The position numbers and the translations under genes were made by a program. Shown here in pieces: positions 6,206-13,806 of a stretch of DNA of 28,544 bases (position 1 is its first letter; every line of letters begins with the position of its first letter). Below the pieces are notes generated by a model. The model did no database searches and was not told the origin of the DNA. It was given only the letters and a program-made list of their open reading frames with translations. The stretch is from a virus. The stretch lies in the IMG/VR virus record IMGVR_UViG_3300021512_000271, positions 1-28,544 of that record; one strand, 5' to 3'.

Positions 6206-8416
6206 CTATAAAGAATTAATAGTTTTGATTAATTTTTTACCAACAATATCCCAACTAAAATTGTCAATAATATATTGTTGCAATTTTTTACCACGAGCTC
6301 GTGCTTCATCCTGATTATTATAAATAGTACGAAGTAATTTAATAGCATGACCACAGTCAGGTTCTGCCCATAATTGGTCACCATAATACCACGGCGACCA
6401 TGGCATACCAAATACCGGTGTAAGTGTATAATTAGCTAAATAACTATTATCTCTCTTAGCATATTCCAATGCACCACCCCAACCAGTAATCAATATAGGG
6501 TTGCCACAAGCCCCGGCTTCAAAAGGACAATTATGCAATAAAAGACCATTACCAACAAAATTGCGTGAAGTCTCAATAGAAAAATCATACATTATATCAT
6601 TATATTCAACTTTTTTTACATTTTGTACTTTTACCAATAAAAACCGATCTGAAGACCAAAACCAATTACTTCGAACATTAACTGTTTTACCAGTAAAATA
6701 TTCATAATCTTTACCATATATAATAATCGTATATCTATCTAATTTATTACCACGTACAAATTTTTTATGCTTTATACCTGGACAACAACCGACACTATTA
6801 AATATAGATTTGATCTGGTAAGTTAAATCTCTCGAAGTAGTCACAAATTTATATGTGCCATCATACTCACCTATATTATAAAATATACCATTTAGCAATG
6901 CTTTCAAATGCATACCACAATTAAATAGCCAAGTAGGTATATGCTTATTATACTCTTTATTACCAAATAAATTAGAAAATAACATAGAAATTTTTTTATT
7001 CTGAACTAACAATTTATTATTTTCACGCCATTTAGATACCAACAAATAATCTGTAGACACCCCAAACAACGATTCAAAAATCTTTATTAACTTATTTATC
7101 ATATAAGATTCAGATGTCGAATAATTAAATTCGACAAAACCTTTTGAATTTACCTTGCCACTAGCTAAATAAAACCCAAATAAATTTAATAAATCATCGT
7201 TAAGTCTTACCTTATCATTTACTACACCACCTATCTTTGAACGTGTTGACACAAAATCATCTATATAAATATATTCATTCAATTCTTTATCTAAACATGG
7301 CTTAGGTACAGCAATATAGTCACCAACAAAAACATATTTAGCTTTTACCCACCGTAAACTGTTTTCCATTTTTTCACTAGACCAATTACGTCGTTTCCAT
7401 AAAGTCAAATCTTTAGTTACATATAATGGATGGTCCTCACTAACTATAATATCTTCATGTAATAAAGAACTTATGCGCAAACCATTTTTAACAAATCGCC
7501 TAGATACACTAGACACAGTATGAAATTTACCATCAGCTGACATAACTTTATCACCTTTACTTATTTCACTAGCTAGTTTTGCACCGGTCGGTGTAGTTAT
7601 ATTAGTGTCCTTTGCAACACACAACCCAAATCCTTCACCGCGATCTAAGTGAACCAAACAATCACCAGTTTTATGAATACCAAGTACTTCAGATCTATCA
7701 AGCCTATCAGCTATTAAATATATAGGTGGGTAACTGCGCATTTTTGTTACTTTTTTTAATCGTTGTATAGTAGATCTTACGGCTTCTTTTTCACTATCAG
7801 AAAAACCATTACGATATGTTTTTAAAATAAGTGCAACATTTTCATTATTTTGAAAAGCACTCCAATAAGATTTAATTAGTGCCATCGGATGTTTACGCTC
7901 AGTAAATTGAAAAATGCCATAAAATTTATAAGCATTTGGTTTAATACCAGCTACAGTATATAAATCAGCATCAATAAATTCATTTACATCAATACCATGC
8001 GGAACGACATGAACTGGAATGGATATACCTGATTTTCTAAAAATATCAGCGCCCCACTCAGAAGCTGTTATCACAGAATGCAAGCTTTGATTAGTATCAT
8101 CAACCCATTCCCTAGGCACCTTATCAGTTTCCCATACAAAATAACCTATATTAGTTTTACCTACTTCAGCCTTAGTAGGAAATAAATTAGCAGTAAGATG
8201 TATAAATACAATGTTATAATCTATATTCTTATCAACCAACGGCGCCAAAATACGACTAGTTTCACCAAAATCAGATAACCCTTCTTCAAAAGATATAGAA
8301 TCAATTGTTAAAGGTATACCTAATTTATGTAATGACAAAGCATACCCTCTAGCTGCTTGCCCATAACCAGACACATCAAATATAGGGCCTACATATTTAA
8401 TACCACGTATCTCCAT
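6206..8416 (-). CDS. GT4 family glycosyltransferase interrupted by an intein in its EX7E motif
   Basis: The 736-residue precursor is a GT4 enzyme of about 372 residues (1-265 plus 630-736) split by a 364-residue intein (266-629). Host features are a glycine-rich loop (FDVSGYGQAARGYALSL), the VPHGID linker at 138-143, a donor-site K/R region (FTERKHP) and EX7E. E261 and four following residues lie before the intein, and CPF-E633 after it. After splicing the motif reads E-GFGLCPF-E, matching the paralogue downstream (E-GFGLSWI-E). The unspliced chain therefore cannot form the catalytic site. The start has GGAGG eight bases upstream, and the gene follows its paralogue with no gap. The sugar and acceptor are unknown. 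Confidence 0.9.
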   Translation of the reverse strand: MEIRGIKYVGPIFDVSGYGQAARGYALSLHKLGIPLTIDSISFEEGLSDFGETSRILAPLVDKNIDYNIVFIHLTANLFPTKAEVGKTNIGYFVWETDKVPREWVDDTNQSLHSVITASEWGADIFRKSGISIPVHVVPHGIDVNEFIDADLYTVAGIKPNAYKFYGIFQFTERKHPMALIKSYWSAFQNNENVALILKTYRNGFSDSEKEAVRSTIQRLKKVTKMRSYPPIYLIADRLDRSEVLGIHKTGDCLVHLDRGEGFGLCVAKDTNITTPTGAKLASEISKGDKVMSADGKFHTVSSVSRRFVKNGLRISSLLHEDIIVSEDHPLYVTKDLTLWKRRNWSSEKMENSLRWVKAKYVFVGDYIAVPKPCLDKELNEYIYIDDFVSTRSKIGGVVNDKVRLNDDLLNLFGFYLASGKVNSKGFVEFNYSTSESYMINKLIKIFESLFGVSTDYLLVSKWRENNKLLVQNKKISMLFSNLFGNKEYNKHIPTWLFNCGMHLKALLNGIFYNIGEYDGTYKFVTTSRDLTYQIKSIFNSVGCCPGIKHKKFVRGNKLDRYTIIIYGKDYEYFTGKTVNVRSNWFWSSDRFLLVKVQNVKKVEYNDIMYDFSIETSRNFVGNGLLLHNCPFEAGACGNPILITGWGGALEYAKRDNSYLANYTLTPVFGMPWSPWYYGDQLWAEPDCGHAIKLLRTIYNNQDEARARGKKLQQYIIDNFSWDIVGKKLIKTINSL
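6530..7621 (-). mobile_element. Intein (Cys1 / HN-Cys+1) with a degenerate LAGLIDADG endonuclease domain
   Basis: The intein covers host residues 266-629. Block A begins with Cys266 (CVAKDTNITTPTG). Block B is VSEDHPLYV with His329. Blocks F and G are YDFSIETSRNFVGNGLLLHN, ending in the penultimate His628 and Asn629 with Cys630 as +1 residue. All residues needed for class 1 protein splicing are present. Between them lies a LAGLIDADG-type region. The first motif, NLFGFYLASG (411-420), has Ser419 where Asp or Glu is required. The second, LLNGIFYNIG (507-516), has Ile515 in that position. Splicing should work, but DNA cleavage by this domain is unlikely. Confidence 0.93.
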
Positions 8417-9736
8417 TTATAATTCCTCCGACTCAATAATTTTTTTCTTACCTAATTGGCTAACAAGTGCTTCTACATCCTCACTATGCTCTTTATCCTC
8501 TTTCTGAATTGCTTCATAAGCTTCATCAAAAACATCAACCCATCGCGGTACAATACCTCGCTGCCAATCCATCTCATTAACAATCCATTTATACGCATTT
8601 TCAGCTTTAGTACGTGCTTCATCTCTATTATTATAAATATGAACTAGAGTTTTCACCATGTCATCAACATCTACTAATGGCCGCATAACTTCATTATCAT
8701 GCGGGATTACTGTCCACAAACTGGGATCACTACCACTATTAACAAGGTACCCTCTGTCCTCAGTAATAAATTCCGACATAGCTGTATTATTTGGCATAAC
8801 AATTGGTACTTTAGTAGCCATGGCTTCAATCCACGATAAGCCAAAACCTTCGCCAAGCGTTGTACTTACAATGACATCACTTGAATTATATAATGCATTA
8901 ACAATTTCACGGGGATAACCTTGATTAGGACCAAAATTCTGTGGAAAAATAACATCCTTAGTAATATCAAGTCCCATCTGTTTACAAACTTCTGGCAAAT
9001 CCCATCCCTGATCTTTCATTGCCATATGAAGATATAAAATTGAATCCGGAACATGTTTTCTAAATTCCTTAAAAGCTTGGATAGTCCTAGGAATATCTTT
9101 ACGCTGCTGATTACGATTAAGATTAGTAATAATAAATTTATCAGCTTCTGACTTAAAATACTCTTTACGAAAAGCATCTACTTCATGTTTTGGTAGTGGA
9201 TAAAACTCTCTTGTATTAACTCCATGTGGTATAACTTTCATATCATCACGATCTGGCATAACCTTAAGTGCTTCATTCTTACCAAACTCTGAATACGCCA
9301 CAATAATATCTGCGTCTGATATATTTTTACCCCATTTTTCTTTCAAAACAGAGTCCACTGGAAAATATAATATGGATTTGAATTTTCTAGTACTATTATA
9401 TTTTATATGAGGTAATACCACTGGTAAGAAATCCATAATAAATGAATCTTGTAAAAAAAACAATAGATCAAACTGCATACGTGGAATCATACTAACAACT
9501 TTCTGTCTACCATATGGGTCCCGTTCTTTGTTTGTACCTGCTGGCCAAATACGATATGGAAAATTATGTGGGTCACCCCAATAATTGATTCCAAATATAT
9601 CAATTTCATACCTACCTGTGTTATACAAACCTTCAAAAATATTTCTTGAAACAGTGCCAAATCCTGTGGCACATGTAGGCGAATCACAATATGCAAATAC
9701 TCTTATTTTCTTTGTTTCGTTTTTAATTATAGACAT
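8417..9736 (-). CDS. GT4 family glycosyltransferase (intein-free paralogue)
   Basis: The 439-residue protein is a complete GT-B enzyme. The N-terminal loop TCATGFGTVSRN at 21-32 is followed by a linker IPHGVNTREFYP at 169-180 and the donor-site stretch NLNRNQQRKD near 205-214. The EX7E motif is E296-GFGLSWI-E304. It shares architecture and several motifs with the intein-bearing GT4 protein encoded next (PHG[IV], GEGFGL, YNN-DEAR), so the two are paralogues. This copy shows what the intein-free motif looks like. The C-terminus carries an acidic tail (KEDKEHSEDVEAL) of unknown role. GGAGG precedes the ATG by about nine bases and overlaps the end of the upstream endonuclease gene. Confidence 0.9.
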   Translation of the reverse strand: MSIIKNETKKIRVFAYCDSPTCATGFGTVSRNIFEGLYNTGRYEIDIFGINYWGDPHNFPYRIWPAGTNKERDPYGRQKVVSMIPRMQFDLLFFLQDSFIMDFLPVVLPHIKYNSTRKFKSILYFPVDSVLKEKWGKNISDADIIVAYSEFGKNEALKVMPDRDDMKVIPHGVNTREFYPLPKHEVDAFRKEYFKSEADKFIITNLNRNQQRKDIPRTIQAFKEFRKHVPDSILYLHMAMKDQGWDLPEVCKQMGLDITKDVIFPQNFGPNQGYPREIVNALYNSSDVIVSTTLGEGFGLSWIEAMATKVPIVMPNNTAMSEFITEDRGYLVNSGSDPSLWTVIPHDNEVMRPLVDVDDMVKTLVHIYNNRDEARTKAENAYKWIVNEMDWQRGIVPRWVDVFDEAYEAIQKEDKEHSEDVEALVSQLGKKKIIESEEL

Positions 9737-9751
9737 AAAAAATACCCTCCA

Positions 9752-11350
9752 TTAAACATCAAATTTAAATTTTAAGTCGCCGCAATCCCAAATCCTATAA
9801 TAACCAGCAGACTTTCGTAATTCTTTTTCAGTAATACTCGTGTGCCGATCATACTTATCAGCACATTTACGTAAATTAAATATACCAAATCTAGTTACAC
9901 CATCTTTTGTATACCAATAACTAGGTCTAGTATAACCTAAAAGTATAAAACCCAATTTATAATAAAAATCCCCAATTGACCATCTACGATCAGCATAAGA
10001 AATTACATCTTCAACATCATAATTCCTTAAAAAATACTTAAACAATTTAGAAGCAACTCCTACAACACTTAGATTTTTATCATAGCAATATCTCTTCAAT
10101 TCAAAATTTTTACTAAACTTTGTATAATTCCATTTGGCTATTGGTTTTAATGAAAATGTCATTACTGCAATTAATTTATTTTCATAAAAAGCACCTAGCG
10201 CTATTTCACTAGTATCTTGACCACACAAATGATTTACATTAAGAAATCTATTTTTCATATCAGTACTTATTTCTTTAACATCACATTCTCTAGCATAAAT
10301 CGGTTCCTTCTGATTCAAATTAAATATATGCTTTAAGCGGCTTTTAACAATATCTTTCTTAAACAACCATTCATCTTCAAATATAGTTATTAATCTATAT
10401 CCATTTTTTATACATTTATTCAATTTAGTTAAATGATATGTAGCACCTTTACCATTGCGTTCAGAATGCCAATATAAACCACAATATTCTATAGCAATTT
10501 TTTTACTTGGTACAACAATATCCAATTCATAAGGTTCTATAATTTTTCTATCTCTATAAAAAACATCAGAAAAATATAACTCTAAAAACTTACCAATTTC
10601 ATTTTCCCCATTTGAAGTATTATGCGAACAATAAGGGCATCTTACTCCTTGCTGCCAATCATTCCATCTAATACTATGCTCATGCCCATTCGGACAAATA
10701 TAATCTATTTTACTAAAAGCATTTTTATAACGATTTGATCTTACAATATAATTCTCAGATTCAAATGCAAACTTAATGTCATTAAAATCTAACCTAGCTT
10801 TATCATCCCTACGTTCTTTATTACAAATAGGACAAAACATAGTTCTACGGAAAATACTCCAACGCATTTTAATTTCATGTCCATGATTACATCTAAATTT
10901 AATATAGCTTTGTGCATCATCGAATTCATTTTGACTAGTTAATAAATCATATCCTATTTCATTAATAATTCTTTTCACATCTTCAAATTTAGTTTTCAAA
11001 GAATTCAAATAGCATGACCTACATCTTACACCTTGCCTCCAATGAGACCAACTAATAAAACATTTATGACCTACTGGGCATATTAATTCTAATTTACTTT
11101 CAGAATCATCCCATTCAGTGGTTACCAATTGATAACCATCAGACTCTATACTTCGCTTAACATCTTCTATATGTATATACCTACTACAATATTTACAACG
11201 ACGACCAATTTTCCATTTAGACCACGAAATTTTCCAATCGTGCCCATTAGGGCACACTACATCTAAATAGGTATGAGCATTTTTATATTCAGTAGCTACT
11301 AGCTTATAATTTTCAGCTGCCATTGTTTTTCTTATATAATCTAACATCAT
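9752..11350 (-). CDS. Free-standing Vsr-like (EDxHD-type) homing endonuclease with four zinc ribbons
   Basis: The 532-residue protein has three parts. Residues 3-241 hold four repeats of about 60 residues, each with a C-x3-H ... C-x2-C zinc site: C33/H37/C52/C55, C91/H95/C110/C113, C154/H158/C173/C176 and C219/H223/C238/C241. Residues 246-330 form a Vsr-like nuclease core with E250, D277 (YELDIVV), E288, H295 (GLYWHSE) and E325-D326 (IFEDEW), matching the EDxHD homing endonucleases of phages. The C-terminal part (about 350-530: FLNVNHLCGQ, LKRYC, SYADRRWS, LGF) is the GNAT-like region often attached to them. The gene interrupts a biosynthetic-to-replication boundary and has only a weak ribosome site, as expected of a mobile gene. 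The start fits the first repeat's beginning. Confidence 0.82.
   Translation of the reverse strand: MMLDYIRKTMAAENYKLVATEYKNAHTYLDVVCPNGHDWKISWSKWKIGRRCKYCSRYIHIEDVKRSIESDGYQLVTTEWDDSESKLELICPVGHKCFISWSHWRQGVRCRSCYLNSLKTKFEDVKRIINEIGYDLLTSQNEFDDAQSYIKFRCNHGHEIKMRWSIFRRTMFCPICNKERRDDKARLDFNDIKFAFESENYIVRSNRYKNAFSKIDYICPNGHEHSIRWNDWQQGVRCPYCSHNTSNGENEIGKFLELYFSDVFYRDRKIIEPYELDIVVPSKKIAIEYCGLYWHSERNGKGATYHLTKLNKCIKNGYRLITIFEDEWLFKKDIVKSRLKHIFNLNQKEPIYARECDVKEISTDMKNRFLNVNHLCGQDTSEIALGAFYENKLIAVMTFSLKPIAKWNYTKFSKNFELKRYCYDKNLSVVGVASKLFKYFLRNYDVEDVISYADRRWSIGDFYYKLGFILLGYTRPSYWYTKDGVTRFGIFNLRKCADKYDRHTSITEKELRKSAGYYRIWDCGDLKFKFDV
10628..11344 (-). repeat. Four tandem zinc-ribbon repeats within the endonuclease gene
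   Basis: Four protein repeats of about 60 residues share the pattern I-x(3)-[EN]-Y/G-x-L followed by C-P-x-GH ... W-S/N-x-W-x(2)-G-x-R-C-x2-C. The third copy is the most divergent (CNHGH, F in place of the second W). They probably act as DNA-reading modules that give the nuclease a long recognition site. The role is inferred; the cysteine and histidine spacing is read directly. Confidence 0.85.
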
Positions 11351-12513: not shown

Positions 12514-13806
12514 TTATTTAATATTATATTTACGATCACAACCAATATTAGAAATATCTATATATTCTGATATTATATCTGAAAATTTAAGTATATTATT
12601 TTTTTTACCCGTCTTCAAATACCAATATTTCGTTTTATATTTAACAATTCTAAAATCTATTCCAAATTTATCTAAAAACCATTTTTGTATCAATACATTT
12701 TCATCGTAAGAAAATGCAGTGGTATCTATACCAATTACTTCAGATTGCTTTGTCGCTCTATAATAACCACTATCCCTAAACCAAATTGATACACCTAATG
12801 GACCGAGTTTATCTAAAAATGTACTACTTATTACTTTTCTATCATTATAATAAATCAATTCGACATATTTATTAAATAGCTCACAGTATACTGTTCTAAA
12901 TATAGAAAACCATGCATTCTGTTTTATTTTATAAACGTCAAATAATGAATAAAACAATGATTCAAAAAATGAAGATTTATATACCAAATATTTTTTATTA
13001 CATAATTTATGCTCAATTTGTAAACAATAATTATTATGTTTGTTAGATCTATATAGATCACCAACTCCAACAATAGTACCTAATAATACCTGTTCTTGAT
13101 CATTAGTTAATTCCATATAATTAAGTAACCTATCTTCTTTAATAGGTATCTTCAAATTTTGCACCCATGAATATAACGTATTATACCCTACCTTCAATTT
13201 TTTAGCGATATCAACTAATGACTCATTATTATTTATGTAAGCATCCGTTAAATAATGTGTTAAATCAATATTATTAGTTTTTTCTATAGAAATCATTTTC
13301 TTTGTCTTATAAACATCCTCTGCTATAAAACTCATACCAATAATTATACTATCACAAATATCATTATGGTCAGTAAAATTTAAATGATGTAATCCAAATT
13401 TATTAATAACAAACTCAAACACCTCTTTTTTTGTCTTTAAATTAAATACAGACCTAATAAATGTCGTAGGAAGTACAAAAACGTTATTACCAAGGCGCTC
13501 ATATCCAATAAATCTTAATACACCGTTTAACTGAGATAATAAACAATATGTTTTTATATTTCTTAAATAATATACATCTTCTATCAATAAAATATTAACA
13601 TTGTAAATATCCATTAATTCTTTAATATTATTAGAGATGTAAATCAACCGCTGAAAATCATTTATATCTTTAGGTGTGTTTATTAAACCATAGCTTAACA
13701 ATTCACCACCACTATTAATAACAGACCATCCAGTTCTACGTAATGCTGCGTCTATAGACAATATATTAGTACTATTCATAGTTATATACCAAAAATAAAA
13801 AATCAT
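12514..13806 (-). CDS. RuvC-like Holliday junction resolvase fused to HTH and degenerate LAGLIDADG domain
   Basis: The 430-residue protein begins with an RNase H-fold resolvase (about 14-165). D19 lies in ILSIDAALRRTGW, E76 in LLIEDVYY, and D149/D152 in DHNDICDS, matching the D-E-D-D set of RuvC. Residues about 185-222 form a homeodomain-like HTH (SLVDIAKKLKVGYNTLYSW). Residues 233-415 resemble a LAGLIDADG_2 homing endonuclease, but the two active-site acids are replaced: LLGTIVGVGD has V248 and SIWFRDSG has S346 where Asp is normal. No Cys1 or HN-Cys splice signature is present, so it is not an intein. The ATG at 13806 overlaps the upstream stop as ATGA; an internal ATG at 13779 is an alternative start. 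The resolvase probably processes replication and recombination intermediates. Confidence 0.8.
   Translation of the reverse strand: MIFYFWYITMNSTNILSIDAALRRTGWSVINSGGELLSYGLINTPKDINDFQRLIYISNNIKELMDIYNVNILLIEDVYYLRNIKTYCLLSQLNGVLRFIGYERLGNNVFVLPTTFIRSVFNLKTKKEVFEFVINKFGLHHLNFTDHNDICDSIIIGMSFIAEDVYKTKKMISIEKTNNIDLTHYLTDAYINNNESLVDIAKKLKVGYNTLYSWVQNLKIPIKEDRLLNYMELTNDQEQVLLGTIVGVGDLYRSNKHNNYCLQIEHKLCNKKYLVYKSSFFESLFYSLFDVYKIKQNAWFSIFRTVYCELFNKYVELIYYNDRKVISSTFLDKLGPLGVSIWFRDSGYYRATKQSEVIGIDTTAFSYDENVLIQKWFLDKFGIDFRIVKYKTKYWYLKTGKKNNILKFSDIISEYIDISNIGCDRKYNIK
12517..13257 (-). mobile_element. HTH-LAGLIDADG homing-endonuclease-derived module at the 3' end of the RuvC-like gene
   Basis: This part of the reading frame encodes an HTH plus a two-motif LAGLIDADG core, a combination common in phage homing endonucleases. 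It follows a RuvC domain that already looks complete. It therefore appears to be an added mobile-derived segment rather than part of the resolvase fold. Both catalytic acids look lost, so it is probably a fossil or a repurposed DNA-binding module. Confidence 0.65.

Follow-up and report, generated by a model that had tools for sequence, protein, structure and literature searches.

An intein with a degenerate homing endonuclease in the EX7E motif of a phage GT4 glycosyltransferase

The location of inteins in conserved active-site motifs is a general rule (PMC2814812, PMC5050341), and phage inteins adjoin the catalytic motifs of terminases, nucleases and other proteins (PMC5050341). Fungal chitin synthase, a glycosyltransferase, has been listed among the hosts (PMC5784728), and PhoVMA is a solved case of a degenerate endonuclease with a retained Hint domain (PMC8966425). 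Surveys of phage inteins are dominated by hosts of DNA and nucleotide metabolism, with which the GT4 hosts described here contrast.

In a literature search covering a minority of the subscription journals, no paper was found to describe an intein in a GT4 enzyme of phages or bacteria. Protein searches of a phage collection, using the inteins with and without their glycosyltransferase (GT) flanks, yielded no annotated isolate phage with a GT4 intein among the matches listed; the intein hosts in these matches included ribonucleotide reductase, DNA polymerase, terminase and DNA methylase, and the site-C intein (see below) as query gave only non-GT annotations among the matches listed. Three matches that seemingly reached the N-extein (Yersinia fHe-Yen9-02, Vibrio D454 and MT835926) were discarded as GT inteins, their flanks being methylases or other proteins.

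The GT-alpha precursor and its intein

The stretch analysed, referred to as the window, is the 28,544 nucleotides of IMG/VR virus record IMGVR_UViG_3300021512_000271. One of its genes, GT-alpha, encodes a GT4 glycosyltransferase interrupted between E-GFGL and CPF-E of the EX7E motif, a point designated site A (Table 1). A sequence-only reading of this DNA had proposed an intein here, and the proposal was borne out by exact boundaries, empty alleles, Pfam and NCBIfam matches and a Hint model; the residues it had named for splicing (Cys1, His628, Asn629 and Cys+1) are intact and lie where it had placed them.

Table 1. Position of the features of the GT-alpha locus in the window
Feature	Position	Strand	Basis
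GT-alpha precursor (GT4 glycosyltransferase + intein, 736 aa)	6206..8416	-	ORF; phrog_2170 glycosyltransferase, 7.2e-20
N-extein, residues 1-265, ending ..DRGEGFGL	7622..8416	-	Alignment with intein-free relatives
Intein (site A), 364 aa, 42.05 kDa, residues 266-629	6530..7621	-	Pfam Intein_splicing; AlphaFold2; absent in L003 and many others
C-extein, residues 630-736 (Cys+1 PFEAGACG...), and stop codon	6206..6529	-	Alignment with intein-free relatives
First EX7E glutamate, E261	7634..7636	-	Invariant in alignment A3 (41 sequences)
Second EX7E glutamate, residue 633 (E269 once spliced)	6518..6520	-	Present in window; variable in GT family
Cys1 codon TGT (Cys266), N-terminal nucleophile	7619..7621	-	Sequence
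Block B His (VSEDH), residue 329 / intein 64	7430..7432	-	H64 column nearly invariant in 16-intein alignment A4
Penultimate His628 and terminal Asn629 codons	6530..6535	-	Sequence
Cys+1 codon, residue 630	6527..6529	-	Sequence
Approximate point of missing accessory segment, ~70 residues (..YSPKNTKNSYKNLV.. in other site-A inteins)	7238..7255	-	Alignments A1 and site-A
First LAGLIDADG helix, degenerate: LFGFYLASGK (LFGWYLAEGS in others), Ser for catalytic Glu	7154..7183	-	Alignment
Second LAGLIDADG helix, degenerate: LLNGIFYNIG (..GDG in others), Ile for catalytic Asp	6869..6898	-	Alignment
GT-beta, adjacent GT4 paralogue, intein-free in window	8417..9736	-	Pfam Glycos_transf_1, 1.8e-11

Spliced GT-alpha would have 372 residues and a computed mass of 41.98 kDa, with ..GEGFGLCPFEAG.. 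as the predicted junction peptide after ligation. An AlphaFold2 model of the GT of viral contig L003, an empty allele, displayed a GT-B fold of the GT4 type (pLDDT 95.1), and its PDB matches were 3oy2 (8.4e-19) followed by the GT4 structures PimB', HepE, BshA and PimA. In the spliced protein the EX7E motif is perfect (E261-GFGLCPF-E269), and the sequence-only reading was right that both glutamates are present. Its description of both as catalytic was overstated, because T, S, A, Q or Y frequently stands at the second position in the aligned family, and most site-A carriers too have a replacement there (CPFTAG, CPFSAG); judged from the alignments, the motif is canonical in the window GT and not across the whole GT family. 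Scanning of prokaryote genomes with the GT-alpha family gave only three distant matches, and the family thus appears essentially viral within the genomes searched.

Several lines of evidence identify the insert as an intein. It matched Pfam Intein_splicing (2.7e-9), and the NCBIfam signature for intein C-termini, TIGR01443, scored above cut-off with the whole 736-aa protein as query. The AlphaFold2 model of the insert, built with 16 related inteins, had a pLDDT of 89.5 and a confident Hint fold; in Foldseek its best PDB matches were the homing-endonuclease inteins TliVMA (7qsu, 1.5e-21) and PhoVMA, followed by PI-PkoII, PI-SceI and PI-PfuI, and the values for TliVMA, PhoVMA and PI-SceI ranged from 1.5e-21 to 8e-15. 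When the 1092-nt intein DNA (28.6% GC) was base-shuffled 2000 times, no copy was open in frame, and the frame is therefore not a chance opening. The Cys+1 position is V, S, T, G or P in nearly all intein-free homologues and Cys in intein carriers. Sequence and predicted structure together confirm the segment from 7621 to 6530 as a class 1 (Cys1) intein with intact splicing residues and a predicted Hint fold.

GT-alpha and GT-beta belong to a cluster of adjoining glycosyltransferase and methyltransferase genes, which suggests glycan synthesis or virion modification. Adjoining GT-beta, at 9752-11350 (minus strand), is a gene for a zinc-ribbon/CapR protein that matches the homing-endonuclease families phrog_559 and phrog_3339 and has a Mom-like C-terminal part. 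A RuvC-like resolvase gene at 12514-13806 (minus strand) carries an in-frame C-terminal LAGLIDADG_2 domain (5.5e-24); since the open frames of RuvC homologues in seven related contigs are only about 180-190 aa long, the endonuclease has the look of a mobile addition.

Decay of the LAGLIDADG endonuclease

The sequence-only reading, although correct about the intein itself, missed that its homing endonuclease is dead at the sequence level. Both LAGLIDADG helices end in an acidic residue, Glu in the first and Asp in the second, in each of the 27 other GT inteins in the alignment that are full-length or nearly so, and the window intein is the only aligned GT intein lacking both. It is also shorter than the other site-A inteins (364 versus 434-436 aa, plus one incomplete copy), the missing residues falling between the N-terminal splicing part (Hint) and the endonuclease core. 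In the N-terminal splicing part, the window intein shares 49-52% identity with the remaining site-A inteins, which are 49-53% identical among themselves; in the endonuclease core the corresponding values are 34-39% and 57-63%. The splicing part is thus as similar as it is among relatives and the core is less so, indicating that the loss is specific to the endonuclease. With both acids replaced and about 70 residues gone, the nuclease is predicted to be inactive and homing would no longer be expected.

Shrinkage of the endonuclease domain and linker is able to harm splicing, and block B of the window intein reads S-E-D-H, with Ser for the Thr of TxxH, as in all site-A inteins. It may therefore be asked whether the precursor splices poorly or only cleaves, in which case the GT allele would be a pseudogene or a two-fragment enzyme. 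We regard this as unlikely: none of the nucleophiles is missing, nor is the penultimate His; conservation of the splicing blocks equals that in relatives whose nucleases are intact; the frame is open throughout; and the Hint fold is modelled with confidence.

Empty sites and recurrent inteins in phage GT4 genes

The GT of contig L003 is 84% identical to that of the window and is contiguous and insertion-free at site A, so that the boundaries of the intein are exact. Searches with the spliced GT showed site A to be empty at the same exact point in L003, L004, L007, L011 and others, and exact 372-aa insertion-free alleles were found in L003 and others. With only the window intein as query, no relatives were retrieved from the viral contigs, since no other member of the group has diverged so far; relatives of the intein were reached only through the spliced-GT query and intein alignments.

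In a tree of 74 GT-alpha rows, site A was occupied in five, and five changes were required, the maximum possible. The window GT grouped with full support with those of L003 (empty) and L025 (contig ending before the site). A sixth site-A carrier, besides the five in the tree, is L137. Five site-A inteins had the length needed for placement, that of the window included, and they formed one clade (100, SH-aLRT) apart from the inteins of other sites, with a terminal branch of 0.89 for the window intein versus 0.23-0.33 for its clade mates. Patchy hosts and a single intein clade are the pattern left by homing. The window shares 80% of its nucleotides with L031 and 70% with its sister L003 over the 10 codons that follow the site on its 3' side, and L003 is the closer of the two in the rest of the gene. 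These 30 nucleotides give a weak hint of co-conversion; a recent homing event, which had been considered from them, was kept as a hint because the signal is confined to this length.

Because the insertion splits the catalytic motif, the precursor should be inactive, and the splicing domain has been conserved during endonuclease decay. The intein could on these grounds have been retained after endonuclease loss as a post-translational switch (redox or timing) for GT activation. Such retention is very unlikely: the same pattern is expected without regulation, a non-splicing intein being one that would kill the enzyme, and the site is empty in most relatives, including L003, which argues that GT function is independent of the intein. 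Equally improbable is the wider proposal that splicing of EX7E inteins has been co-opted as a maturation switch giving timed or condition-dependent activation of phage GTs. Inactivity of the precursor, for which the sequence-only reading had argued, is a fair deduction, although it is not evidence of regulation; it follows from where inteins settle and is not a sign of control. The redox-sensitive switch which that reading had raised drew no support from the sequence. Neither a Cys at -3 nor a CxxC pair was present in the precursor, in which the nearest N-extein Cys is at -13, and Cys1 by itself is the normal nucleophile of class 1 inteins. A further reading, in which the segment would be a normal, permanent domain of the GT family, has only the open frame in its favour. 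It is excluded by the precise empty sites in L003, L004, L007, L011 and many other homologues, and the Hint and LAGLIDADG fold and the intein C-terminal signature also speak against it.

The sequence-only reading had called an intein in a surface-glycan enzyme uncommon; the surface-glycan role is itself a deduction from the neighbouring GT cluster. Searches of IMG/VR showed that the intein is no isolated case: inteins in the EX7E region were found in at least 21 IMG/VR contigs and at least four phage GT4 lineages. This count includes six GT-alpha carriers, and L078 is counted in although its contig stops a few residues into the intein; the IMG/VR counts are lower bounds, as the searches were pattern-seeded and the contigs are mostly fragments. 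In GT-beta, inteins occupied the identical point (GEGFGL / S/T-x-x-E) in L003, L008, L013, L145, L096, L149, L176, L148 and L086, and a point three residues earlier in L173. A third type of GT4 had one EX7E intein allele on three contigs (L141, L142 and L143), and two further GT4s had inteins one residue (L210) and two residues (L191) later. Additional sites were B (GMPW/S) and C (FQW/T) in GT-alpha and D (TLYLH/C) in GT-beta. Two inteins were present in the single GT-alpha of L031, L107 and L137, and one GT-alpha gene in L029 (L105), from 4514 to about 9694, had three, at sites C, A and B. The GT-beta ORF of L148 starting at 2275 combined a 152-aa endonuclease-free mini-intein at EX7E with a full intein at site D. 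On these alignments, the EX7E region is a place where inteins recur in the GT4 genes of phages.

Some inserts departed from the usual form. The site B inteins of GT-alpha (L031:4247-5416, L023:4931-6106 and L020:4928-6049) start with Ser in two cases and with Cys in L020, and all end in Ser-Asn without a penultimate His. In L173, the GT-beta-like ORF from 1999 has, at about residue 330, an insert at GEG/CGLS that starts with Lys and has no Cys or Ser at position 1; this insert is intein-like and may be a non-canonical or decayed intein. The L029 contig shows frame breaks and an unrelated stretch of about 150 nt at site B, possibly an assembly error.

In the intein tree, most GT-alpha EX7E inteins, part of those of GT-beta and those of the third GT4 grouped together with moderate support, and another set of GT-beta inteins formed a separate clade. 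A tree with a single clade for all EX7E inteins was 16.9 log-likelihood units worse, and the AU test did not reject it (p 0.284); the claim that EX7E was invaded several times independently was tempered for this reason.

Two adjacent phage GT4 genes are thus intein targets at four or more positions. EX7E, the best-conserved stretch of GT4 enzymes, seems to be the GT4 counterpart of the ATPase P-loop, an essential motif from which an intein is hardly lost. Every stage of the homing cycle is found at one site: empty, with an intact nuclease (most carriers), with a decayed nuclease (the window) and as a mini-intein (L148). The adjacent paralogues GT-alpha and GT-beta provide a setting suited to cross-homing tests.

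Proposed history and comparison with known systems

Very probably, the insert is a once-mobile class 1 intein that arrived by homing, still splices and should no longer home. Endonuclease-driven homing would have brought it into a phage GT4 gene, at the EX7E motif. After translation of the precursor, in which the catalytic motif is split and which is probably inactive, the Hint domain would excise itself using Cys1 and Asn629, and the exteins would be joined via Cys630, linking E-GFGL to CPF-E in an uninterrupted 372-aa GT that we infer to be active. With mobility apparently lost at the DNA level, the intein would now be inherited passively; it may persist because the GT active site would not survive an imprecise loss.

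The profile of phrog_36001 (715 aa, function unannotated) matched residues 238-654 of the precursor (1.7e-17) and the intein alone (9.7e-14). The match covers the window intein from end to end and runs into both GT flanks, and phrog_36001 probably represents a GT4 precursor whose intein has gone unannotated.

Chitin synthase is a GT2-type enzyme. The fungal chitin synthase (CHS) inteins likewise lie within a glycosyltransferase, and differ in that the gene is eukaryotic and nuclear and the insertion site unrelated (PMC5784728). The mycobacteriophage inteins (in terminase, RecB-like and other proteins) share with the GT4 inteins the location beside catalytic motifs, the presence of several insertion sites in a given protein family and the patchy distribution; their hosts, in contrast, are DNA-packaging, DNA-metabolism and nucleotide proteins, and the word "glycosyl" is absent from the survey (PMC5050341). 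PhoVMA and TliVMA, from Pyrococcus horikoshii and Thermococcus litoralis (7qst, 7qss and 7qsu), have the same Hint domain with a nested LAGLIDADG endonuclease, and in PhoVMA, as in the window intein, neither helix retains its catalytic acid (PMC8966425). Unlike the window intein, to which they are about 20% identical, they reside in the A subunit of a V-type ATPase and are archaeal and thermophilic. The site-A inteins of IMG/VR contigs L031, L107, L029 and L137 occupy the same site in the same GT family and fall in one clade with the window intein; they differ from it in having the LAGLIDADG acids and the accessory segment intact, with 33-43% identity to it.
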